This document shows positions 1-15,109 of a stretch of 64,000 bases of DNA, in pieces; the stretch's first letter is position 1, and every line of letters starts with the position of its first letter. The translations under genes were made by a program, and so were the position numbers. The notes under the pieces were generated by a model that was not told the origin of the DNA, did no database searches, and was given only the letters and a program-made list of their open reading frames with translations. The stretch is from Terana coerulea (Eukaryota; Basidiomycota; Agaricomycetes; Polyporales; Phanerochaetaceae): positions 1 through 64,000 of the forward strand of contig JAKOGH010000811.1 of assembly GCA_024811115.1 (NCBI GenBank), written 5' to 3'.

Positions 1-605
1 CGTCAGTTGCAGGGCAGTACACCCAGAGCGCGCCGAGTTATTGCGGAAACTCACCAAATTCTCGACGTCGCAGGCCCGTCCATCGGCGTGCGCGCTCGAA
101 GACGCATGCCCGGATGCGCCGATACTGCCCCGACTGCGACGGCGTTGGGTGCGCCCTCGGCCGCTTGCGTCTCGCTCGCCGGACGCATTGTCGTTGCGGA
201 ACAGCAATCCCGGACCCCACACCATCGGCGGGAGGGCGCGGATGGCATGAACGGCTGCGTGGGACGCCGGCCTGCGCGACACAACACATTTCAGGTGGGT
301 ACGACCACATCGCGCTCGGGAACGTCAAACACTCACCGTCGGCTTGCGCAGAAGTCTGTCCCTTCCCACGCACAGACCGTCGCAAATGCACCACGGAGCA
401 CGCCCTGTCCACAGCACAACGCGCAAACGCACGGGCGGGCAAGACCCCGGTTGGCGGACGGCGCCACATGGCGGAGTGGCGACATTCGCCTCGACGCTCC
501 GCGCAGCGCAGCCGCAGCCAGCCGTCGCCCGCACACGGCGGTCTACTCGTCGTGGCGCAGTCGGTGACCAGTGACGCCGTCGCGACCACGAAGCCGCCAT
601 GACGT

Positions 606-1100
606 CGGTCGCCGGACGACGATCGGTTGCGGAACGGCGACATCCGCCCCGGGACGTGGCGCAGCCGCAGCCCTCCATCGCGCACGCCCCGCGCCCCGCG
701 CGTCGACTTGTCCACGTCGGCCAGCGGCCAGCGACGACCTGTGGACCATGAACAGCCCAATATGTCGGTCGCCGGACGGCGATCTGTTGCGGAACGGCCA
801 AATCCGCGGCGACGATGCCCACCCACCCGACCGACGGGTGCCGTCCGCGCGTCCCGCTGCAGCGGCGTGTAGCAGCCACACCGCGGCCCTGGCAATGCGA
901 CGCCGAGACCGTGCTTGCGTCGGGGTCTTGGCCGCGGGACGCCGATCCATTGCGGAACGGCCAACATCGACCATCAACAGGGCAGTCGGGGGACTCGTAC
1001 ACGCACGCGCACCTGGTCTCTCCATTGACCACACTTCAACCACGTCAACGCGCCGTGAGGACCTCGGTCGCGGGATGCCGTTCTGTCGTAGAACGGCGAA
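606..1100. repeat. Degenerate GC-rich direct repeat, about four copies
   Basis: A motif that pairs a GGTCGCCGGACG-like block with a TTGCGGAACGGC-like block recurs near 606-640, 764-800, 930-962 and 1,057-1,100. The spacing is roughly 160, 165 and 137 bp. Weaker echoes (GTTGCGGAACA near 190, TTGCGGAAAC near 43) suggest the array once extended to the left edge. The long open frames on both strands here come from high GC content and have no recognisable domain, so I do not call genes. The copies are too diverged for a young satellite. Confidence 0.6.
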
Positions 1101-1147
1101 ATGGGCGCGCGATGCGCCCCACAGCGGCCAAGCGACGAGGACTCGAT

Positions 1148-1610
1148 TCGCAGGGCCCTCGCGGGCCCTACTCGGGGACGAGGCGCGCCTGTCGCGGGGG
1201 CTACACGCGTGGCCGTCTGACCGCAGGACGCCATACGCGGCGGCTGCCCGCAGCGCATCGACAAACTCCCGCGGCGGGAGGCGTCGTTTTCGCCTAGACA
1301 CGAAAAGACGGGCGTCTAACGTATGTCAGCCCGCAAGGCCGCTGGAGCATGAGCGTCGAGCGTACCTGTGCCGTCACCGCCGCATCTACCGCCTCCCAAA
1401 GACCAGCACGGCGACGAAGAGACCTCGCAGGGCCCTCACGGGCCCTGCTTGGGGACGAGGCCCCGTCAGCGAGGCGTCAGGCGTCGCCGTCGACCCGTCG
1501 GACGTCGGACGCGGCGGCATCTCGCAGCGCGCTGACAAAATCCCGGCGCGGGGGCGTCGTTTTCGCCTGGAAACGAGAATACGGGCGTCTATCGGCAGTC
1601 AGCCCGAATA
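1148..1610. repeat. Two-copy direct repeat with about 275-bp period
   Basis: The block around 1,150-1,175 (GGCCCT, a short gap, GGGGACGAGGC) returns at 1,428-1,455. The block around 1,259-1,335 (GACAAA, a GC-rich stretch, GGCGTCGTTTTCGCCT) returns at 1,533-1,607. Both offsets are about 275 bp, so a single unit was duplicated in tandem and then diverged. No coding function is apparent. Confidence 0.6.
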
Positions 1611-2099
1611 GCCTCGGCAACACGAGTTATGGACTCACCAACGGCGCACGGCTCGTCCTGGCCACCTCCACCGTCGTCTCCTTGCGTCGCGAAGCCTCGC
1701 GTGGGTCTTGGCGAGGCTGGAGGCAAAGATGCGCCCGCGCAACGGGCTGTTGGCGCATGTAGCGTCGAGGGCGCACGGACACGACGTCCGCGCGGATGCC
1801 GGATTTGAATGATTTACAGAATAAGGGACTGGTCCTGTGTCCTCGCGCGCACCAAGTCGAAGACGATGAGCCCTCCGTCCAAGGCCCCCAACATCAAATT
1901 CTTGTGCACGTCGGCAGTGCGCGGCGTTTCGAGACGTTCGCTTGCCGGACGTCGCTCGATGGCTGCACGACGCACCGTGCCCGGCGCGCACATGTCCTTG
2001 CGCGTTGCGAAGGATTCGGGGTGACGGTCTTGGGCAGATGAGCAACTACGCGGGAAGTCGAGGTAAGGCTCAGCCAGGTTTGCATCAATTCTATTGGTA

Positions 2100-4410
2100 C
2101 TCACTCTTATTCATAGGTCTGCTATCTTCGTGAATTGCCTTTGTTACCGACGGCGACGCCTCGGTTCAGCCTACGTCCCGCGGCTGGGACTCCGACCTCG
2201 CTTGATTGTATGGATAGACCTGTTGGAGGACACCGTCAGCTCCGATTGGCAGCGACGAGACAGCGCACGCAAGAGCTTCGCGGCCTTGCACGTACAAGCA
2301 TTCGAAGCGCACATACCTGTGTTGACGCGCCGTCGGTGGAGCAATACGCAACGCGCGTTCTCGTCGCCCTCTCGCTATTCTCTCTTCCATGCGCGCCGTC
2401 GGCGTGGGCTTGCAGGTCCGCCGACAAGACCCCGGTCGCTGGAATGTGGTCTGTCGCGTCTTTGCTGTGCGCGTGCACGACGGCCTTCAGTCGATGCGCT
2501 CTTCTGGCGGCTTGTGCGAATTGCAGCTTACGGTGTGTGTGCTGCGGGGTTGTAAGACGGCACAGTGAATGGCTTGTGCAATGGATACTGCTCTGGATGT
2601 GCAAAGAACTGCTGGTCGAGAACGAAGGGGTAGGAAGGGCTCAGGACAATGTGGAGTGTTGCAGGGCAGATTCACGACACCGAACCATGTGGACAATGCT
2701 GACCAAAATCTGGGTTCACAGAGAACGCGCGGCTTTGACTAGCAGCCGACGGCTGTGGATACTGGGCGTCGCTGCTTTGCAATGGGATCAGAATCAAGGG
2801 AAACACAACGGCATGCTGTTACGAGGTGGATTAGGCGACGTCTCGAGCTGGCACCTCGAGACGTGCGCAACTGACCAATTTCTGATCATCAGTTTCAGAC
2901 TTACTTGGTATATTGTCCAGGGTCCCACGTAATGTGCCTTGGCCATACCAGCCCATGCTTACACGACTAGAAAGTCTTGTAATCCTGAGCTGGTACTGCC
3001 AATGATTATTCAGTTGGACACTTGCACTGACAGTTCTTGCAAAGGCTGAAATCACAAGTACAGGCATTCTGCCAGCAAGGCCAGAGCTGATAGGCTCTGA
3101 TTTATTCTCACGGAATTGTGAACCTGGCATGCCGTGAACTGATAGGGAAGGTGCCGTGCATCTGCTGGGTAAAGTGTGAGTCCCACGCTACCTTGTTCCG
3201 TCATCTCATGATGCGAAGGAACATCACAGGTGCTGGGTTTGTACCTTGGCTACATTACACCAAATGCGATGCAATACCCAGCAGCTGTGCTTCGACAGCG
3301 CTACTCGCATCGCCTTGATGAAGGTCTAGTAGCCTTCTGATGTTTGTATTTCTGATTCTGCGGCCCGAATACATGTAAATCATGCCAAGCGGTATGATAG
3401 AGGACAAGCCTCGGATGGGACAGTTGGAGGTGCTGGTGCTTGATATCTGTGGGTATACAAGAGGGCTTGTATGATTCAAGAGCCCTGTGACATTGGAGAA
3501 TATCAAGAGCGACGTTGAACGGACTTGAAGTACGCGCACAGCAGTGACTACTAGCATGCCTGTCACCGTCTATCGCGACTAGCAAGGCCCTCTCTTGTCG
3601 TGGATCGCGGAACTCGCACGCTATGAACATTTCTACAATTAAACTATACCTAAGACAAACATGTGGAAGCTGCGCATGTATTCCAGTCCGAGCATGTCAG
3701 GATTTGGGACGGACGCCAGGATTTCGCCGGAAAGCGACCAAAGATGGCAATCCATCAACGCCACAAAGAAGAAGCACGCTCAGCGCCCTTACAGCGTTCT
3801 GCGCCGTTTACGCTCAACTTGTCTCTGCTCACGACATGGCCTGCTCGGCACTCCAGCTTCACATGTCGTTGGCGTCAATTTTACAATATCAACAGCTAAG
3901 TACCATTCCGCACTTGTTTTCGGTGCTTAGTTTTTCCCTCAGACGTCGAATTTGCGCTCAACTTGCGCGGCAGGCTTGCGGCTTGAAGTGTATGGGATGG
4001 GAGTGACGTCTCACCAAGGCCAGGCGAGCTGAGGCAGATTGGGGGCCTCGTTCAGCCGAGGTGCGCATGCTAGAGACCAAATGTACCTGGATACTGACAG
4101 GCCGTGGAATCGTGCTAGAAGCCTTGCGGCATGCTCTGGACGGTTTGCTCAAGCGAATCTTCCGACGGGTGGACCTCGTAACGCAAGCGCAAGTTCACGG
4201 CATGCCGTGATGGAGCGCGCGCTCTAGAAGATGTGCGATCAAACCGCTGTGCTGGGACGACAACGAAGAGAGAGCCGAGCTCGTTTTCGGCCCTTTCCTC
4301 GTTCCCGTCTCACTCAGCAGTTGGAGCGTTCCGGGCATGTGGGTACGACGTGTGATACGAGGGTCAGACGTACGACCGGAAGAAGGTCTGGAGAGGCCGA
4401 AAGTGCTGAG
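2100..4410. other. Stretch without a supported gene
   Basis: Open frames in this stretch are short, lack recognisable domains and overlap on both strands. Apart from the inverted repeat at 2,838-2,864 and a 20-nt sequence at 3,758-3,777 that recurs at 10,335-10,354, I see no interpretable feature. The base composition is less GC-rich than in the preceding 2 kb. Confidence 0.5.
2838..2864. repeat. Perfect 10-bp inverted repeat with 7-nt loop
   Basis: The arms acgtctcgag and ctcgagacgt are exact reverse complements separated by ctggcac. Each arm holds an XhoI-type CTCGAG core. It could be a cruciform, a hairpin or a dyad binding site. No flanking gene is recognisable, so its role is unknown. 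Confidence 0.6.
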
Positions 4411-4418
4411 ATGAAAGG

Positions 4419-4515
4419 TATAAAGGACGCGAGGCAAATGGATGAAGACTGCATCCTCTTCCCCTCGTCCTTCTCTCCCTTTCTCCTATCCCCACCACCC
4501 CTCTTCTCTGCTCAC
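4419..4515 (+). promoter_or_regulatory. TATA box and pyrimidine-rich leader of the multi-exon gene candidate
   Basis: TATAAA lies at 4,419-4,424. It is followed by a long CT-rich tract (about 4,450-4,515), a common arrangement just upstream of transcription starts in filamentous fungi. The first usable ATG of the multi-exon candidate, at 4,591, lies about 170 bp downstream of the TATA box. This supports transcription to the right but is not proof. Confidence 0.45.
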
Positions 4516-4590
4516 CCGGCAGCTGGCCATTTTACCTCTCGCACTGAATGCGCACTCTTCTCTCGCCGTCATCGAGGACGTTGCTCTCGC

Positions 4591-7140
4591 ATGCTCGCTT
4601 TCCGCGTCGCTCCGTTAGCGTCAGGAGGACCGGCTAGTGGTCCAGAGTCAACTTCAATAAGTAAGTGCTAGCTTACCCACTTGTAGTGGCTCTTGCGCTG
4701 ACTTTAAGCATCCATTTGTAATCGTTTTAGCGTTTGTTTGTACCTGCAATGTTGTGTATGCATTGCGTCTCGTCGGTGCCGCACTGTGTAACGGCCGAGG
4801 TAAGTACCAGTTCTCTTCTCAGCTCCGTTTATTTACTGATTGAATTCCACAGATTTAGCGGCTTATTCAGTTAGCTTACCACGTAAGTCGTCCGGCTAGT
4901 CTCGCCGTACCACACACTCATGCCACATTCAGTATAGGCCATCTGCTTATGGTATGCACGGCATTTCCCACTCGCTCGTCGCGCCGCACTGACGTCTCTT
5001 TAAAGGATAACAGTATGTACCCGCTACTGTTGACTGCGACAAGAACTTACGAAACTCGGCTTTAATAGCTCCAGCCTCCGTTCGCTATGGTCGACAGGCG
5101 GTCAGTCCAGGTAATTGACTTCAAGCCGCTCGAGAAGACACTGAACGGACGTCAATAGGGCCTGTACGGCTTTACTGCTGCCATGCCATGACGGGCGGCT
5201 GTGATATTTTACAGGTACGCCGTTGCTTCTACCGTGCTGCCATGATTACTGACTTAATATTGCACATTAGATGGCTGAATGCTTGCAACGGTTATTACCG
5301 TACTCGCCGCATTGTCAGTGCGTCCGGCGCACTGTTGGCGTCGACCGGCTACCACTCGAGACGACGCGGCGCGTTGCAGCCTGGGACCCCGAAGCTGCCG
5401 AGGCCGCCGGCCGCCAAAATATCTCCCGCAAGCTACGCCCGCCGTCCCCTTTGCTCGTCGCGTGAGACGGTACGGCATTGCGGCCACTGTGATATCCTAC
5501 AGGTGCGCAGTCGTTTCTGCGATGCTGCCATAATGACTGACTTGATGTACACAGATGAGCGAATGCTTAACACGGTTATTACCGTGCTTTGCCACATGGT
5601 CAGTGCGCTCGGCGGCATACCGTTGGCGTCTGCCGCTCGAGACGACACCGCGCGTCGCGATCTGCGACCCCGAAGCTGCCAAGGCCGCAAACATATCTTC
5701 CTCGCGCTATGCACGCCATTTCCCACTCGCTCGTCGCGTGGGGCGGCGCGTTGCATGGTATGCCGGTACTTAATCCGTATTATTGACCATGAAGCAATGG
5801 CTAACGAGATCTCGCTTCAGGGCACTGGTATTCAATCAGATAGGTTACGAACGCGTGACTGTGGATATAGGTAAGTAATGTCCAGCCCTCGCTTTGAATA
5901 CATTTTGAGCAGTCGTTCATAGGGTCTTGGCAAACACCACCACGCTGCAGTACTCTCCGGCGCCGTTACTACTAGTACGGCATAAGCAACTGTCAGTTAC
6001 TATACAGGTACGCGGCCGTTCACATGAGCTTACTGCTATTACTGATCCGATGACCACAGTTGTGCGACGAGGCTTCCTGCCAGTGGAGCATTCCGTGCAC
6101 CTTTCAAATATCGATTCAAGCCACGCCTGCCGCCTTGACCGTTGGCGAGAAGCAGGCTTCGTCCATTGACATACCTCTCATGCAACTCCCCATGCGCAGC
6201 ATCCAGGTAATGGCACCTTAGACCATCTAAAGCGGCTCATGCTGACCTTTACATGTAGATAATCTCTCTACTTGTGGCGACGATCATCCTATGCCCCTGC
6301 ACATGTACGCACGACAACGCCGGATTCGGCTCGCGATCGTTCATCGGATGTCGTGCGCCGTGGACGTGAGAGCCCGCAGGCTTCGTCCATCGACATATCC
6401 ATCATGCAATTCCCTATGCGCAACATCCAGGTAATGTCACTTAGACGATGTCAGACGGGCCATGCTGACCTTGAACTTATAGATAATCCATCTCCTTGTG
6501 GCGACAATCATCCCACGTCCCCGCACATGTACGACGCCGCCAGATTCGGCTCGCGAGCGTTCATCTGGCGTCGTGCGGCCGCTGCGGCGTGGACGTGAGA
6601 TTCCGTGGGCCGCTCTACTGATCCATCATACGGTACGTCTTGTAGTCTCTGTAACGCGTCGCATCGCTCACGAATATGCTGTTTCAAGCCTTATGCTCAG
6701 TATCTCGAAACTGCGGCCCGAGACAACATTGAGAACGCCGGGGGCATGCGTGTGCCGCAGAAAACTGCGCGCTCGACTGCCGACTCCCTCCCAATTCAAC
6801 CTATACCGGTACGCCCCATCATGTTATCCTATATACTCCAAGCAGTTGCTAACCTTAACCTTACAGCCCTTGTCCATGAATTCGCTCCGTCGTTATAGGT
6901 GCTTGTTGTCGAGTCGTCGACTATCACGGGTGCGCAGGCTACCGGTAAGTATTGACTCTTATTCAATAGCATTGTACACCCTTACCAACAAGTTACTAGG
7001 GTTTACGCTGTCGCAATCACCGAGACTGTGCCAACCGCGTCCGACCTCCACTCCTCGCAATGTACATGAAGCCGTTACAGCCGTGCTATTGGTGCTCCCC
7101 TCAGACATATCTACATCCTTCTGGCTGTTATCTTTACCAG
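4591..7140 (+). CDS. Unrecognised gene candidate built of many small exons with tandem exon duplications
   Basis: I do not recognise the product. From ATG 4,591, seven exons (4,591-4,660, 4,731-4,799, 4,853-4,882, 4,938-4,951, 5,006-5,012, 5,069-5,110, 5,159-5,214) join through six GT-AG introns of 48-70 nt into about 96 codons without a stop. Two of the exons are only 14 and 7 nt long. An exon opens at 5,271, but the path from there to 5,870 is unresolved. Beyond that, exons 5,923-6,007, 6,060-6,206, 6,259-6,430, 6,483-6,632, 6,689-6,808, 6,867-6,944 and 7,000-7,140 are separated by 52-58-nt introns. All of these introns are phase 0, and all complete exons except 6,259-6,430 keep the frame; that one contains a 4-nt insertion relative to its duplicate. 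Codons for Cys are frequent in several exons. The 3' end is not resolved; intron-like signals continue to about 7,700. It could be a real modular gene or a decayed one. Confidence 0.45.
5199..5780 (+). repeat. Tandem repeat of about 285 bp containing exon and intron
   Basis: The segment starting with TGTGATATTTTACAG (near 5,200) is repeated from about 5,490 with TGTGATATCCTACAG. Similarity continues through the following intron-like stretch, the exon beginning near 5,271 (second copy near 5,555), and the block CCCCGAAGCTGCC. The codons for Cys-Asp-Ile-Leu-Gln just before the donor differ only synonymously. A partial third echo (TATGCACGGCATTTCCCACT) occurs at 4,953 and 5,708. Confidence 0.6.
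6150..6602 (+). repeat. Tandem exon-intron-exon duplication of about 225 bp
   Basis: Copy one (about 6,150-6,371) and copy two (about 6,372-6,602) each contain the end of an exon ending in ATCCAG, a 52-nt intron with GTAATG donor, GCTGACC branch-like sequence and TAG acceptor, and the next exon starting ATAATC. Exon parts are more similar than the intron bodies, and several exon differences are synonymous. Copy one has four extra bases after ACATGTACG, which breaks its frame relative to copy two. Confidence 0.65.
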
Positions 7141-10100
7141 GTAAGTTGAGCTAGTCTCATCATTACGAGCACGTATGACCACTATACTGACCATCTTGGA
7201 CCACCACTCCTCGCAATGTACCAAACACGTCATGTATCAGTAGTACTTGTCCGTATACATTACGACCGGCGTTAAGTAGACTACAACCGTGACCACATAC
7301 AGTCTATATAGGTCGGGTACGCATGACACAAGGCCGTTGTACTGACCTCGTTCTATAGCTACGTCAGTAACGACGGACTCGGATATGCTCTGGCGGTGAG
7401 TCGCAGTCGCGGTAAGAGATTTCGGAAAAGGTCTTATAACAGGATAGACAGCTCACGTACTCTCGTTTGTAGGCCGTTAGGTCGAGCACCAATGATGACG
7501 AATAACGCGCAACCCGCGTATACATAAGTAGGTCGTTCTATTACACTCGCACCAAGCACTAATACTGAACGAGCTACAAAGGTGAATTCTTTCCTGCATA
7601 CTTAGGCTGACCCGGGGCCTTTGCATGCAAGGCGGCAAGACCATAGGGTCAGTGTCTTTGACATGCTATGTCCACTAGCGGGTACGTCGAACACTTGTTT
7701 ATTACTATTCAGGCCGTTAATGTACGTGTAGGTGCCTATCTATTGGACTCGTGTTTACGTGCCGGCGTCGAACTGCGCGACACTGCTACCCAGTGCCACC
7801 TCTCGTTACGGGATGCACGCCGCACCGTGACTCTTGTTACATTGGTGTTCCGCTACTGTATTGCCGGACGTCAGTACTGGGCGCACATAAAGGTGTTTGT
7901 AAGTCTTTGCTTACCATCTTGCTAGTGATGTGCGCTCATAGCCGTATTGCTTCGTCAGCTCGTATGTGCGGTGGCTCAATGGCGCAAGCATGCCCTGCGC
8001 CCATATACATGACAGCTGTACTCGGGGCAAGCGTTCGGCGCGTCTGTGCTCGATGCGGAGCTTCGTGCGTTACACTCCCCGGCGACTGATGCTCGTGGCT
8101 AGCAATGCCGCAGCGGCGAGCAAACGCGAACCGAGCGCGCCGAGGACGTTGCGAGACTTTCCGCTTGGTGTCTCGTGCGTTCGCCCCGTTCCGAGACGTC
8201 GTCCGCGGCTACGGTGCGTCATTTCGCTTGTTCTCCAAGGCCTCGTAGGCTGAGAATCAATAGGCGCCCGTATATTCGCTTGCATGCAATGTCGACATTG
8301 TTTCCGCCAGGCCTTTGGCTGGGCGTAGAAGGATGCCGCGAGCATCCACTCGGAGAGGGTATCCCTCGACTCGGCGAGTGGCTTTGCCCGCATGCTGTTC
8401 GCCCAGCGTGCTGCCAGAACTTCAAGCTGCTCGGCCCGCTCATTTGTGTTGTTGCGCGCCGCACGTAGGGTGCGTTCAACGGTATGCCGCGCCATTGAGC
8501 CTGCCTTGTCAGGCAGGCGCGAGCTCTGTGGCGTCGCAACGCTTGACCTTCTCTAGGCCCGTACCTCTCGTTCCTCTCGTTCTCGATGGGTTTGGCTGAC
8601 TTTTTACATGTGGGCAGGCGTGCCAGTCGCTCTGCGCTGCTCGCGGCCGGACGGCGGAAGCAGCCTGCGCGGGCTGGCCAGTGATTTCTCGCGCACGTGC
8701 GCATTTGACTCGGCGTCCGTGGTGTCTGCCGTAGCGACTCGGCCGTCGCCTTCTCTCGTGCGGTGCGTGCATCCTTTCAGCCTTGACTTGTTGTGCCGGC
8801 GCGCGCGTTCCGCGTCGAGACCCTTCCCACTCGATAGTGTCTGCGGTGTCCGATTTAGTACAAGGTGGTCAAGGCGGGGTGGACGAAGCGTACCGAGGAA
8901 GCCGCGGCACCGTGGCATCGGGCACCGTTGACTTGCGCAACGGCCAGGCTACGGAGAGCGGCTTGCGGCGTCGGCGAGTTGGAACCGACGCCAAAGCCGC
9001 CGCCGGACGGATGAGACTGTGTGATATGGGGTGAATAGCGGTCGAGGCCTGGACGATATGTCCATTAGCCAATGAAAAGATGGTGGTCGGGCGGTCAGGC
9101 AACCAGGCCGGTGCCCAGTGCCGGCATGCGCACTGGGCGGCGTTCGGGTCGGTGCTGGTGTGGTTGGCCGGGCGAGGCTCCCGTCGCATCGCCGTGTGTT
9201 TGCTTGGGCACGGAATGGCGACGGCGTGCCGTGCGCCGGTATTCAGCCATCGTCGAATGGCGGGCAGCACCCGTGCTGCAGAGCCTCGGGCTGATTGGGT
9301 CGGGCAATGGCGTCTGAGTGCAATGCCGCGGTCACCCCTACGGCGAATGAGACGGCTGGAGCGAATGAGTGACCTGAGCGAGATGGCATAAGTTTACAGC
9401 GAAGGCAAAAGTGTTTGCGCGAACGTACCAAATCGGAGCGAGCCTGCCCGCCGCACGGCGTCCTGGCAAGGTGCGCAGTCACCCGAAGGCAGCGCGCACA
9501 ATTCTCGTGCTCCGGTTACGCGTCAAAGCGTCGGGACCCGTGGTACTTTCGCCATGGACGTTGGTGGATGTACGCTGGGGTCAGGGTTTAAGTCGACTGT
9601 TGCGACTCCAACGGGTACACGGGAGGAGGACGTTGGGTGTCTTGGCTAGTAGTCCATGAGTCACAACTTTGCCCTTTCGTAAGCTACTGCTTTCAGACTT
9701 TGAACGGATGCTGTGCTTACCTTCATGCCCTCAGCTCAAGCCAAGGTTGTCGTAGCCGTCGACTTCGCGGCTGCGAGTCAACCTCGCCTTGCTTCTGGCA
9801 GGGCGTTTGAAGAGCAGGGCGCCGGAGGTCGAGGTGCGCGTGCATGGACTTGAAACGCGACATTTGCGCTCTTCATAGGATCGAGCACCGACTCTTACAA
9901 GACCTAGGCGGTCAGACAAGTCATGTGTGCCGGGGAGGTCGAGAGCTGGGGGTCTCTCCCGCAGGAAAACGCGGAACTTGCGGTCGCTGTAGTCGCCGGT
10001 GCGCTTGATGGCTCCACGCCATTTTTGGTCTCCGCACTCGCCCATACTTTCTCATGAATCTTGAGGCGTCGGTTGCGACGGGACGGCTTGCGCAGAGCCG

Positions 10101-10680
10101 AGAGGGCGCGACGAAGCGGGAGGTCGGTGCGTTGGGACATTGCTGGCGAGCTGGCAACTTCGGGTTGGCCTACCGTGCTCAGCACACGACGAGAGCGCGT
10201 GAAATTCACACGGCGAGTGCCAGCATGGTATACGAGGCGACCTGGGGTGTCGAATGGGACGGGACACGAGTATGCGGGTGGGGAAGAGAGAGATGATGGG
10301 AGAGCGAGAGAGATGCGTGGGCGCCAAGGGCTCGACGCCACAAAGAAGAAGCACTCAGCTACTTTGCAGAGGCTGCCTGCTGCATCGCACCAGCAATACC
10401 TCCATCGCAGTCGAGCAAACAACCACGGTTGTGAAACAAATATATTTGTGCTTTGATTAATATACATGGCTCTGTGTGTACCCCTCTCCACGTAAGGTCT
10501 TCGTCTACTACGGCGTATTCAACTTTTCCTCCTCCTGGAACCAGCCGAGCGACGGCGCGTCCTTGTCCTCCGCCACCGAAGCCAAGACCAGCTGAGCCGC
10601 CGCATGCAGTCGGCGGCGAGTCCACGCTCGCGTTCGCGTCGCCACGGAACATCTTCCGAGTGCACCTTGTGCACGAGGTT
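7141..10680. other. Gene-poor stretch with intron-like signals at its left end
   Basis: Up to about 7,700 there are further donor and acceptor pairs with tiny intervening segments (for example 7,237-7,395). The block ACTCCTCGCAATGTAC of the preceding exon is echoed at 7,206. The recurring sequence GCCGTTA after AG appears at 7,474 and 7,713. From 8 to 10.6 kb I see no protein that I recognise on either strand; the frames are short and compositionally driven. Two small hairpins are visible: GCCTGCC...GGCAGGC near 8,502 and CCCAGTG...CACTGGG near 9,115. Confidence 0.4.
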
Positions 10681-10689
10681 GCAGAGATG

Positions 10690-12989
10690 CTATGGATGCG
10701 CTCCAGACCAGCAAATGCCTCTGACGCATTGTCAGCTGCGACGAACCGCTGGAAAACAGTAGAAGCGAGCCTATCGAGCGTGAGTGCGAGGGAGTCAACT
10801 GTATAGCAGCGAGATCTACGCACGAGATACGAGCCCATTCAACGACTGCCTGGTAGTTCGGAGGAAGGTTTCTTATGTCCGGCGTGTGCTTGATGGTCGC
10901 AAAGACGTGCGTTATGCCATCTACACAGAAGCGTTATTACACAATGCGTAAAGGCCCGAGAGCCAACCTACTTCGACCCAGAAGCTCGCCCTTCACGCTT
11001 CGGACAGCATCCCTCAGGCCATCTACCCGCTCGGTAATCTCCTTGGCGAACCGTATCCGACCGTCGTCGCGCATGCGGTCAGCCTCTTCCGTCGACGCGC
11101 ATCCTCCAGCTCCTCCTCACTGCCGTGGGCACCATTCAGCTGCGTTGCGCGCGACATGCAGGGTGTGGTACATACCTGAGGCGTGTGGGCCCGGAGAGCA
11201 GGAACGATCTCAGGACAGGTGACGACGCGAACACCGGCGACGACAGCAGCGTGTGCAGATACGACCGCAGAGTCAATCTGTTCTTCTCGCGCGCGAGCCG
11301 GACGGGTGCATCGTCGCCCCCGCGCCGCCGCTGACGCTGACCGGCGATCCGGGGCTGCCTGTGTCGTGGCTTCGCGAACTCGAGGCACTCTGGAACGAGT
11401 CCACGCTCGCGTTCGCGTCGTCGTGGAACATGCCGGGCATGACCCTCGAGTGGCGAGGGGTGTAAGCGTACGAGGGACTGGCCGGAGCCGAGCTCGCCTG
11501 GTTGCTCTGGTGCCTGCGATGTGTTGTTTGGTGCGCCTGAGGAGATCCAGCACTGGAAGGCGGTGTGGACCATGTCACGTCCACATAGGCACGGTCTTTC
11601 ACAGGGGGCGATGGTATTATCTCCATGGAGTGCGCTTTACGGAGCTAAGACATCAATCAGGAGCAAGACAGAACACTCTGCAAATCGGGCGTACTTCATC
11701 TGCCAACGTTCTGAAATCGCCGTATCGTCGAGAGACAAATACGTCTGCTTGATGGCTGCGGCGGGTACGTATAATGAATTCCTACGCATATATGCACAGA
11801 TTAGCACGCACTCCCATCAGGCCCACTATCGAGGATAGTGTTGCCGGAAAGTGGAGGTGCAGATAACTCGAGGTATCGAAGTTTATTCACCTCGCTGTAC
11901 CTCGAGGTGCTGGATACTTCACCTCCGGGTTCACCTCCACCGCTGTTGCTGCTGAAGCACAGCACGGCGTCATGTGGCACTGGAGATGACGGAGGTAGCT
12001 CTAGCTTCTCTGCGACCGCCAGGCCCTCGAGATGCCACAGAGGCAAGGTATTTGCCACCTCGTGGCAGCGAAAGGTGACCTTGCATCGGAGCTACCTCCA
12101 CCTCCCGGCAACACTAATTGAGGATGCAAGAAGCGTACCTCGTGCGCCTTACTTCTAACCCGTTTCTTCTCCACCACAGTCCGGACGGAGACAATGTTCA
12201 CTTCGAACATGTCTTTGAGCCTTTCCTGCCTGGCCGCTCTCTTCCTCGCAAGCATCTCGAGTCGATCCAGGTCCTTCTGCGTCAGACGCACGACTTCTTC
12301 TGGCTCATGAAGCTTGGTGCCGCTGCTGATCAGCATAGCAAAGTTCTTCTCCAGCCTGGTCAGGAGTTTGGCTCTGGTCGCCTCCTCCGAGTTCTCCGGG
12401 TTGTTATCTAGTGGCGATGCAGACGAGAAGTTCCGGGAGAGGAGGTTCGCCATGAACGGCTGCAGCTTGTCGGGGAAGAAGTCCTTTGGTGCGGCGGCGA
12501 GGAATGGGAAGGAGAGTATGAACTTGCGGAACATAAAGCGCATGAATGGGACATCGAGCTGCGGTCCATCCTTTGGCGGTGGCGTGAAGGGAGGTCCAAG
12601 GTAGGAGAACGTAGACTGATTATTCTGGGGTACGGTAGTGAGAGCACCTAGTTCGCGACGAAACTCTAGCGTGATCAGTTCCTTCTTCAGGTAATGGGCT
12701 CGCAGGGGTGTAAGTTCGGTAGATGTCGTTTCTTCTTGTGACTCCGGTTCATCGTGAATGGCGGTTCTGCTCAAAGAAGATTCAGGTGGGTGCTCAGAGG
12801 AGGGGACTCTATCCGAGGCTCGCTAGGGTCAACGAATGGTGATCCTTGTGGGGTATGGAATGTGTGATCTGATTGGCTTCCAGGTGAGGAGAGGGAGGAG
12901 CCCTGCCGCCGCTTAGGCAAGTCAATGTGCGTTGGCGGCGAGGCAGTGTATGGCGAGGTCGGGGTGCCGCCTGCCTGCGTTCCCGCCAT
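10690..12989 (-). pseudogene. PX-domain protein (YPR097W/Lec1-like), damaged copy
   Basis: The N-terminal half matches the fungal PXB/PX family: a LTPLRAHYLKKEL start of the PXB domain, then RLKDMFEVNIVSVRTVVEKK, the PX core DVFVSRRYGDFRTLADE, LAREKNRLTLRSYLH, and RISLASTVFQRFVAADN. Exons read 12,989-12,139, 11,781-11,695, 11,644-11,176, 11,119-10,972, 10,920-10,824 and 10,770-about 10,690, with good splice sites. Family members are membrane-associated proteins implicated in lipid homeostasis. There are three one-base frame breaks, all in homopolymers (T run near 12,773, G run near 11,317, GG near 11,089); similar breaks elsewhere look like sequence errors. After LERIHS the expected domain is missing. 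The text jumps to a NLVHKVHSE-like segment and a 30-bp block copied from the gene's own exon at 11,398. This points to an internal deletion, so I call it a pseudogene. A transposon sits in intron 1. Confidence 0.7.
11836..12116. mobile_element. 281-bp hAT-like MITE in an intron of the PX gene
   Basis: The element begins TAGTGTTGCCGG and ends with its inverted complement CCGGCAACACTA. The inverted similarity extends about 25 bp inward with a few mismatches. It is flanked by 8-bp near-duplicates ATCGAGGA (11,828-11,835) and ATTGAGGA (12,117-12,124), the target-site length typical of the hAT superfamily, and the YAGNGTTG-like terminus also fits hAT. The interior has many GAGGT/ACCTC motifs in both orientations, resembling subterminal transposase sites. 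It has no coding capacity, so it would depend on an autonomous relative, none of which is in this window. It lies inside the intron between 12,138 and 11,782. Confidence 0.75.
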
Positions 12990-13477
12990 AGTTAGGCTCG
13001 GCGTTGAAGGGTGTCGGGACGATGAGGACGAGTGTGGATGAGCGACGCGGGGCTCCTGTCCTGAGCTAGCCGCGCTCAATCGACGGGTGCCAGTGCGTCA
13101 TCAAAGACATCTGCCTTTCTGAGGATCCCATCAAAATTCAAGGGGCGCCCATTTAACGATACTCTTGATTGGCCAGCGCGCAGTGGCACGTTGCACACAT
13201 CCTGACACGGACTCCCTCCTTTGGAAGCATACAACACTTAGCGAACCTACCAGATTAAACTCATGGTCGGTTGAAGCTGAAGACCTGGAGTGGTCGTAAA
13301 AGTACAGTACATTGAGGCATGATCATAGTGGTTACTATAGAAGCTCCTATTCGACAACGTTGACCACAAAAATACTCGATAGGCATAACATGCTACAGTA
13401 ATAGCGATTGACTACGTCAGAGGGATGAGACAAGGAGAGGAGATCCGCAAAGCATTTGCAACACTGAAGGTTCCCCT
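12990..13477. other. Intergenic stretch between two minus-strand genes
   Basis: The part next to 12,990 is the 5' flank of the PX gene; the part next to 13,477 follows the stop of the next gene. No ORF or RNA gene is evident. The PX frame stays open upstream to about 13,079 without an in-frame ATG, so I chose the ATG at 12,989. Confidence 0.4.
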
Positions 13478-15109
13478 TCAATATGCAGTGGGCTGGTATG
13501 CGGTCTGCTGTGAGGGAGCCTGATGCGACATCGGCTGGAAGGCGGGCTGCTGGTATGTTGTCTGACCGGACGCCTGGTACGTGCTCGGTTGGTATGGTGA
13601 AGGTTGGTAAGTGTTTTGGGATGCCTGGTATCCAAATTGTGTGGCATGTCCCGCAGCAGGGTATGCCGAATGAGTAGATGTGACGCTGTGCACAGAGGGA
13701 GCAGGCGACCGCGCGTGCTCCCTGTTTGGTGCACTATAAAAGCTAGCCATATTGTGGCCTGCATTGGTGCTTGATGGTTGTGGTAGGTGGTAGGAGGAGT
13801 GTGAATGGGCGGCGGCAGGATTGGAGTAGGGGTTGAGGCTGGGACCGGTGAGATGTGTTGGCAAATCAGCCGAAGAAATCGACGGGGGCACGTACGAGGC
13901 ACTTGGGAGCTTTTGCGGCGTCGATGCTACCGTCGGCGTGGGTAAATTCGAACTAGGGCCATACAGCGAAGCGACAGAAGAACTAGGACAGTCGCGTCAA
14001 CAAGGAATTAGGACTACATCCGCACCCCACATACCTGTAAAGAGCGGCAGCGTTGACTTTCGGAGGCGGCTCCTCCACATTGGTGTCAAAAATGGACGGC
14101 TTGTCGTTGGCATATGCCACCCGAGGGTCGAACGTGACCCGCGGAACACCAAAGTTGACGTTGTATGCCGTCTGCGGGCGCGGGCTCGCGCGTGGCGGCT
14201 GCGGCCGTGGCACAGGCAGCGACTGATGGTGCGGCTGCTGAGGCCGCGCATGCGCCATCGGCGACGGGGAATACGACCGCGGTGGCGGCGGCTGGGGCAG
14301 TGACCTGCGCCCGCCGTGCGGGGGCGACTGCGAAGCGCGCGAGCCGTGGCCGTGGTGGAACGCCGTCTGCGTCGGCGGTGGCGAGTGCAGCGGCGAGGCG
14401 GGGCGCGAGTCGCCGGGGACGTATGCGAGCACGACCGCGCCCGCGCCATCGGGGTCGTACGGCGGGCCGTCCAGCGACTCCGCGATCGCAGTGAACACCG
14501 GCGGCGGCGTCGGCAGCCGCTCCAGCACGCTGTCCTGCCGCCGCACCGCGGCGCCCTGGAGGAGGTGCGCAGGGCTGCCCGCTGCCGGGGAAGCGGCGCG
14601 CCCGCGGCTGGGGGTCGCCCAGCTGCGCTTCCGCGAACCAGCTCGGCCGCTCCTTCTCCTTGCCCGATGGGGAACGCGCATGCGAACCACCCTTCTTCAC
14701 GATGCGCAGGGGCTGCACCGCAGGCCCGGGCGACTCACTGAAGTCCTTTCCTTTCCCATTCCCTGGGCCAGACGCAGGCGGGGGTAGACTCGGAGTCGCA
14801 GCTACGTGCGGGGCCGCGGCAGGCGCCGTCAATGCGGCGGGTACAGATCCTGGCGCATCTGACGGCGATCGCGAGGATGAGCTGCTGGCCTCGCCAGCAG
14901 GCGCGTCGCTGATTTGGATGCGGGCGGCGTTGGCAGCGAAGAGGGCGTCGTCCCAGGCCTCCCACTCCTCCTCTCCCCTCCGGCAGGCCGCGAAACTGCG
15001 CGGACGTGCTGGCCTCGAGCGCGTGGGACACTTTCTGATCAAACTCCTGCTGGCAGAATTCGTACGCCGGTGGCGGGGGCGAGTCGGGGATGTCGCTCGC
15101 GGCGGCCAT
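13478..15109 (-). CDS. Hypothetical proline-rich protein with Tyr/Gln-rich C-terminal tail
   Basis: I do not recognise a named family. The start is ATG at 15,109 (MAAASDIPDSPPPPAYEF). The protein continues through EEEWEAWDDALF, a long Pro/Ser-rich middle, and the conserved-looking PRVTFDPRVAYANDKPSIFD. It then crosses an intron at about 14,033-13,985 into a tail rich in YQP, TYQ and QQ that ends at the stop at 13,478. Two frame changes occur in homopolymers (CCCC at 14,975-14,978 and GGGGG at 14,610-14,614). Each is resolved by two extra bases in the run, in line with the homopolymer errors seen elsewhere. No signal peptide or membrane segment is visible. The tail is low complexity and likely disordered. 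Confidence 0.6.

Follow-up and report, generated by a model that had tools for sequence, protein, structure and literature searches.

Intron-dense, apparently noncoding loci bearing short sense copies of a cyclin gene in Terana coerulea

The window analysed here comprises 64,000 nucleotides from the polypore Terana coerulea (contig JAKOGH010000811.1 of assembly GCA_024811115.1, positions 1 to 64,000 of the forward strand). Positions 4591-7140 of this window had been proposed, in a sequence-only reading, to be an undescribed gene made of many tiny, frame-symmetric exons. This stretch is probably not a protein gene. Our tentative reading, to which we give slightly less than even weight, is that the locus belongs to a superfamily of intron-rich RNA genes, apparently noncoding and arranged in tandem arrays, that may act on a cyclin by base pairing, most likely through RNA interference (RNAi). 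Its support at the sequence level consists of a conserved upstream region with a TATA box, dense splice signals, the lack of a conserved reading frame, short sense segments from one cyclin gene (hereafter boxes A to E and G), and two loci that carry both sense and antisense segments.

An intron-dense unit within a tandem repeat

Copies of the locus were sought in the window's own genome (48.4 Mb, 896 contigs), whose contigs are denoted here by C and a number and whose loci by L and a number (e.g. L041 on C28, L040 on C101, L028 on C539, L034 on C531). We identified close copies of 91-97% identity on C632, C165 and C631, as well as diverged copies of about 66-85% identity on C309, C515, C610, C197, C103, C291, C295, C649, C481 and C571. 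The window copy and the copies alignable to it are referred to as family I, and loci whose bodies are unrelated to family I as families II-VII. Homology extends far beyond 4591-7140, with distant paralogues aligning piecewise over about window 1-10475, and C309 holds two copies spaced 13.5 kb. Exon modules are duplicated within the window (5194-5470 with 5482-5748, and 6152-6376 with 6376-6577) and their number differs among copies; a protein gene of interchangeable, phase-symmetric exons is unsupported. The close copies L010, L011 and L012 exhibit many 1-2-nt indels, which are possibly assembly errors. The features of the unit, apart from the boxes, are as follows.

1-13127, plus strand: the window's part of a tandem-repeat unit of ~13.8 kb (in C631 and C632, about window 10639-13127 is followed by ~0.7 kb and then by window 1 onward)
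3665-4430, plus strand: promoter-like upstream region, holding the best-conserved windows of the alignment
4418-4427, plus strand: TATA box GGTATAAAGG, then a CT-rich start region; conserved among copies
4460-7760 (both ends approximate), plus strand: putative spliced noncoding transcript, with 20 introns predicted at a score >12
4883-4937, plus strand: chosen intron; donor GT in 9/9 distant copies; 55-59 nt in 11 copies
5013-5068, plus strand: chosen intron downstream of box A copy 1; donor in 8/8; 55-58 nt in 10/11 copies; absent in L021
5111-5158, plus strand: chosen intron; donor in 9/9; 48 nt in 10/11 copies
5503-5554, plus strand: chosen intron; donor in 9/9; 51-56 nt
5766-5820, plus strand: chosen intron downstream of box A copy 2; donor in 9/9; 54-55 nt; acceptor AG in 9/11
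5871-5922, plus strand: chosen intron; donor in 9/9; 51-53 nt
6008-6059, plus strand: chosen intron; donor in 9/9; 52-54 nt
6431-6482, plus strand: chosen intron 4 nt past box G copy 2; donor in 9/9; 52-53 nt
6945-6999, plus strand: chosen intron; donor in 9/9; 55-60 nt
6848-6864, plus strand: element GCTAACCTTAACCTTAC in a late predicted intron; 24 genome sites at <=1 mismatch

The best 60-nt windows of the upstream region are 91-92% identical in 10 distant copies, compared with 71-89% for other windows, and a codon pattern is absent from the part tested (4200 on). The motif GGTATAA(A/G) also precedes families II-VII. Families V-VII (L035, L037, L038) have in common an upstream region of ~500-800 bp with ~71% identity, and matches between their bodies are limited to box size.

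Splice signals were scored with a scan that is blind to reading frame and was trained on nine family I introns. On the plus strand, 4445-7750 yielded 16 strong introns, whereas 20 dinucleotide shuffles averaged 1.3 and never exceeded 3; the minus strand of 4445-7800 yielded none. When the window was divided into 2-kb bins, the two covering 4001-8000 held 8 strong introns each and every other bin held at most 5. Five loci of families II-V, all outside the training set, contained 9-13 strong introns against shuffle means of 0.6-1.6, and over all scanned loci the figures were 9-20 per locus against 0.6-1.8. The earlier description of a TATA box and, behind it, closely packed short GT-AG intron-like segments is thereby borne out, as is the presence of an undescribed intron-dense unit at 4591-7140.

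The individual junctions fared less evenly. In nearly all copies the nine introns listed above keep both splice sites as well as their lengths (48, 52, 55 nt), a conservation that reflects a post hoc choice, as they were picked after the retention list had been seen. Fairer tests gave a modest excess for donors and none for acceptors: among generic-consensus candidate introns of the window 0.79 of donors were kept, compared with 0.62 for other GTs (p 0.042), and among held-out and leave-one-out introns 0.83 of donors were kept (p 0.003), with acceptors at 0.55 and without excess. The intron density is robust, but single junctions seem subject to turnover, most markedly at acceptors. Of the 24 genome sites of element GCTAACCTTAACCTTAC, 20 lie in box A-carrying loci; the reversed control has a single site.

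Short boxes derived from one cyclin gene

Boxes A-E, of about 20-28 nt each, and the longer box G all fall within about 0.8 kb of one strand at C539 (L028). On this strand, a 695-codon open frame starts at an ATG inside box A (MHAISHSLA...) and matches the PF08613 cyclin domain weakly (E 2.9e-4, 21.7 bits against a cut-off of 21); from its sequence, we take it to be a cyclin of the Pcl/pas1 type. Its best named homologues come from Phanerochaete, Irpex and other polypores, with family members named in databases as PHO85 cyclin-5 or G1/S-specific cyclin pas1, and the N-terminal MHA... region is kept in six of eight aligned homologues and missing from the other two. A genome search with the cyclin protein recovered one full copy (C539) and a partial copy on C576; the remaining matches were box-G stretches in the arrays and a weak match at C633:137833 (42%, E 2.8e-4). 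The first-exon frame of C539 departs from its homologues after WQP, whereas the partial C576 copy and the array box E keep the homologues' phase; the shift may be a real variant or an assembly error. The box copies in the window are as follows.

4957-4979 (motif extent 4953-4983), plus strand: box A copy 1, from the cyclin start-codon region
5712-5734 (motif extent 5708-5738), plus strand: box A copy 2, ending 31 nt before the donor at 5766
6139-6202, plus strand: box G copy 1, GEKQASSIDIPLMQLPMRN; 62/64 nt identical to the cyclin coding region
6376-6426, plus strand: box G copy 2; 46/51 nt identical to the cyclin coding region
7042-7065, plus strand: box C copy 1, from the cyclin 5' leader around an upstream AUG; 22/24 nt
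7094-7116, plus strand: box D; 23/23 nt identical to the cyclin
7199-7222, plus strand: box C copy 2; 23/24 nt; predicted exonic in the window

When the cyclin transcript was compared with 12 array loci (score >=14), we found 73 sense and 2 antisense matches, against 0-0.3 per shuffled locus. All but one of the sense matches (72/73) lie within the first ~1 kb of the transcript, so that the boxes derive from its 5' leader and N-terminal coding region. Their order in the window (A, A, G, G, C, D, C) differs from that in the cyclin, and other loci exhibit other arrangements, with A five times and E four times in L025, and B three times followed by D, C and D in L037. In L025 (3146-3737) and L024 (1286-1883), a family II tandem repeat of ~150 bp in four copies, with box E, lies inside the putative transcription unit.

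The boxes are spread widely through the genome. A 25-mer of box A had 67 sites at <=3 mismatches and its 20-mer core 79, with none for the reversed or matching controls; box B had 44 sites (control 2), and boxes C, D and E had 58, 30 and 26 (controls 0). Box A also recurs in loci that otherwise cannot be aligned to family I (C690, C689, C733, C488). Sites were tallied manually on 35 contigs after chance-like matches had been removed, a count that omits C531, C579, C140, C604, C670, C121, C824, C539 and C576 and in which C42 and C312 are each counted for a single box C site; in all there are >40 loci, of which 12 were compared with the cyclin, 18 were scanned for the placement of boxes and introns, and 2 were studied as antisense members. 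A donor-like site follows box A by 31-33 nt at 51/66 sites, where it was sought between +26 and +48 only, and the same spacing holds at 34/45 sites when predicted introns are used. While 29% of these loci is predicted to be intronic, predicted exons hold all copies of box A (45/45), B (8/8) and E (7/7), as well as 13/14 of G, 9/11 of D and 14/22 of C. Box C is predicted to be intronic in 7/10 other family I copies.

Two further origins for box A were considered and set aside: a viral or prokaryotic one, as no exact match was found in viral or prokaryotic contigs, and a free-standing coding motif (HAISHSLV with third-position variation), a translation and a variation that the cyclin explains.

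A different account of the same data is that a mobile or satellite-like element took up cyclin fragments, and that duplication and gene conversion spread functionless boxes. It would fit the recurrence of units every 9.6-14 kb at several loci, the partial cyclin copy at C576, the truncated-looking PX-domain gene carried in the array (described below) and the failure of acceptor sites to be kept above background in fair tests. Less easily reconciled with it are the boxes that stay about 85-100% identical to the cyclin where the remaining sequence no longer aligns, the conserved upstream region, and a box order that does not follow the cyclin; in addition, a six-frame Pfam search of window 1-14000 at E<=0.1 returned no transposon domain and only a partial minus-strand PX-associated gene. 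We consider fragment capture unlikely, albeit with some real weight.

Reading frames and silent-site variation

Where the boxes vary, they do so preferentially at positions that are silent in the cyclin. We counted contig-distinct events, leaving out matches at C531, C579, C140, C604, C670, C539 and C576 and frameshift-like box D rows (C165, C309, C488, C486), and 50/102 fell at silent positions compared with an expected 28%. The excess is clear for box A (24/34) and box D (9/16) and weak for box E (4/9). A bias of this kind fits a guide that tracks a coding target, which would show it without being translated.

It could also indicate that the arrays are fast-evolving protein genes, of a micro-exon or effector-like kind with conserved motifs, many copies of which have decayed. 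In addition to the silent changes in boxes A and D, the longest open frame of the predicted spliced sequence exceeds shuffles in the window (229 codons, p 0.030), L009 (p 0.010) and L025 (p 0.040), and boxes G and C coincide with a few of the stronger signals in the pairwise frame test (6090, 6360, 6990). These signals, however, sit in stretches identical or near-identical to the cyclin, and the stop-free length noted earlier was not confirmed, with frames longer than in shuffles at p<0.05 in 3/17 loci. Stops occur in the box A frame in 29/48 site windows (one a chance match, and windows may reach into introns), the copies have no common start codon, and exon lengths vary modulo 3. We regard a protein-coding nature of the superfamily as very unlikely.

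Parts of the specific gene model put forward for 4591-7140 were not confirmed. The proposed start ATG at 4591 is missing from 15/15 other aligned family I copies, including those that are ~95% identical. The two micro-exons of 14 and 7 nt require an intron at 4952-5005 that lacks a donor in 2/9 distant copies and would excise box A; the alternative is a single exon at 4938-5012, which is exactly 75 nt in 8/11 copies, and the window copy itself may nonetheless be spliced into the micro-exons. Frame symmetry is seen in the window copy only, where the exon lengths of 147, 150, 108 and 78 nt divide by three and that of 85 nt does not, while across 11 copies the same exons fall into every class modulo 3 (e.g. 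78, 76, 70, 79, 73, 81, 72, 85, 73, 73 and 73 nt).

Codon-level tests did not show the purifying selection that simulated coding controls show. No forward-frame z above 3 was found in 4200-5200 or 6312-7750, and 5200-6312 was covered by the pairwise frame test only; in 7850-9600 there was no codon constraint, with a forward frame reaching 3.0 at 8962. Two multi-copy runs yielded one window each above z 3, both highest in a reverse frame, compared with a mean z per 60 nt of 5.8 (omega 0.1) and 3.7 (omega 0.3) in simulated coding controls at similar divergence. The control at omega 1 scored only 0.2, so the test is blind to unconstrained coding sequence. No protein homologue of a box-rich query was found at E<=1 among 7991 candidates scored.

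The likeness to micro-exon genes drawn in the sequence-only reading is therefore inapt, given that no Pfam domain, no codon constraint in the parts tested and no homologue among the scored candidates were found for the stretch. Aphid bicycle genes encode proteins, and their gene structure outlasts sequence similarity (PMC9168663). The arrays resemble bicycle and other micro-exon genes in being rapidly diverging families whose structure persists, and differ in that bicycle genes are protein-coding, whereas a conserved frame was not found in the arrays.

Known noncoding classes were considered as well. Across the whole window no Rfam family matched at its gathering score, no consensus structure was found around 39 box A sites, and a tRNA host gene was not supported at the locus.

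Antisense members and possible modes of action

Two loci differ from the rest in carrying antisense boxes. L041 has 9 strong introns on its minus strand and none on its plus strand, and L040 has 9 and 3, respectively. Along these minus strands, box B occurs once in sense and twice in antisense at L041, and twice in each orientation at L040. The antisense copies on C28 match at 23/24 and 26/27 nt and lie about 30 nt before a predicted donor; match coordinates suggest that antisense box B also occurs on C302, C480, C572 and C651. A further cyclin stretch, at transcript positions ~639-707, is present in sense orientation in L041 (220-154 and 435-420) and L040 (776-743 and 535-508), and is probably another box. 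Long inverted-repeat arms were not found in window 3000-9000, which contains only three inverted pairs of 18-21 nt, nor in L040, which has one self-palindrome, or L041, which has no inverted self-match.

On the reading that we tentatively prefer, the arrays would be transcribed and spliced, and their RNAs would become double-stranded either when sense boxes pair with antisense ones or by the action of the fungus's own RNA-dependent RNA polymerases (RdRPs). Small RNAs of 20-25 nt matching the boxes would then control the cyclin mRNA in trans. The need to match the cyclin would keep the boxes conserved, while the remainder of each exon drifts. RNAi is the preferred route because antisense copies exist, the box sizes fit small RNAs, and the genome contains several RdRP genes. 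The action on the cyclin could be present, or past only.

A number of observations weigh against this reading. Eight of the 22 box C copies are predicted to be intronic, and predicted introns cut 2/11 box D and 1/14 box G copies. Acceptors of generic-consensus introns are kept no more often than background (0.53 against 0.63), and for predicted introns outside the training set neither donors (0.72 against 0.61, p 0.17) nor acceptors (0.32 against 0.63) show a significant excess. With junction retention this weak, the assignment of boxes to exons rests on prediction, and base pairing becomes slightly less likely and fragment capture slightly more so. In the 12 compared loci, box A differs from C539 at 1-4 positions over about 26 nt, so pairing would be imperfect, and box matches are almost all sense, so that RdRP copying or pairing with antisense loci would be needed. 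The silent-site excess has a p of 3e-6 assuming independent events, an independence that is only partial, and box B exhibits no excess (13/43). No TATA box was located for L040. Finally, open frames of the predicted spliced sequence do surpass shuffles in the three loci named above, and summed frames of >=80 codons do so at p<0.05 in L009 and L017.

The strong sense bias also admits a decoy, in which sense mimics of the cyclin mRNA start titrate a repressor, be it a small RNA, an RNA-binding protein or a translation factor, and so raise cyclin output; antisense-bearing loci could then be the repressor and the sense arrays its antidote. The ratio of 73 sense to 2 antisense matches in 12 loci, with several repeats per locus, is sponge-like, the start ATG of the cyclin frame lies inside box A, an upstream AUG is found in box C, and antisense copies do exist in other loci. 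A sponge for a protein, however, need not vary at cyclin-silent sites, and no candidate repressor was identified; on balance, a decoy seems to us an unlikely explanation. A more novel but rather improbable reading is a fungal RNA poison-antidote or drive system, with antisense arrays silencing the G1/S-type cyclin and sense-box arrays serving as matching sponges. The arms race that it implies would lead to tandem amplification, to many families with unrelated bodies, and to boxes that track the cyclin sequence.

Plant trans-acting small interfering RNA (siRNA) loci, known as TAS loci, and target mimics are noncoding transcripts with short conserved segments that match mRNAs. The arrays likewise carry short conserved mRNA-matching segments on putative, apparently noncoding transcripts, and differ from TAS loci in having no known trigger microRNA and in that their boxes are copies from one gene, several per locus. 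The nearest in logic, by analogy, would be the Drosophila hairpin RNA (hpRNA) loci Nmy and Tmy, which silence Dox-family genes (PMC10292708). In both cases genomic loci with homology to a protein-coding target are involved, siRNA-producing and aimed at particular genes in Drosophila (PMC10292708), and here with 73 matches in sense to a single cyclin among 12 loci; evolutionary conflict is a possible parallel. Those loci are hairpins, however, whereas here boxes of 20-30 nt are distributed over many predicted exons, mostly in sense, no long inverted repeats were found in window 3000-9000, L040 or L041, and the apparent target is a host cyclin. In Cryptococcus, the SCANR pathway turns inefficiently spliced, typically transposon-derived transcripts into templates for double-stranded RNA and siRNA (Dumesic et al. 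2013, as described in PMC5851062). Intron-bearing basidiomycete transcripts that feed RNAi offer a plausible entry route for the arrays, which differ in representing a single host gene in place of typically transposon-derived transcripts. We found no description of arrays with this anatomy in an open-access library, subscription journals being mostly outside the scope of the search.

If the base-pairing reading is true, dozens of tandem noncoding genes in a basidiomycete are given over to short segments of a single cell-cycle gene, an arrangement that would be new to gene-specific RNA regulation or to intragenomic conflict. The reading predicts small RNAs from six defined boxes. It would also imply that a noncoding guide can bear a silent-site signature, and would serve as a warning that intron-dense noncoding arrays can pass for micro-exon protein genes.

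Several minor observations concern other sequences. In L034 (C531), stretches at about 1758-1777 and 2838-2857 exhibit an antisense likeness to box A, with 1 and 2 mismatches in 20, within a minus-strand gene that, from its sequence, looks like a TPR-repeat gene. This likeness was judged a coincidence, as the variable positions of the box do not fit the frame of that gene; the stretches are possibly due to chance, or possibly a second target.

Inside the repeated unit, a minus-strand PX-associated gene at window 10687-12822 comprises PXB and the first part of DUF3818. The DUF3818 match spans only the first ~60 of 338 profile positions, and this copy looks truncated because the match stops there. 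Segments resembling this gene region are also found on C631, C632 and C165. A 280-bp stretch (window 11836-12116) is missing from one C632 array copy and is present at 86.5% identity in the C309 unit.

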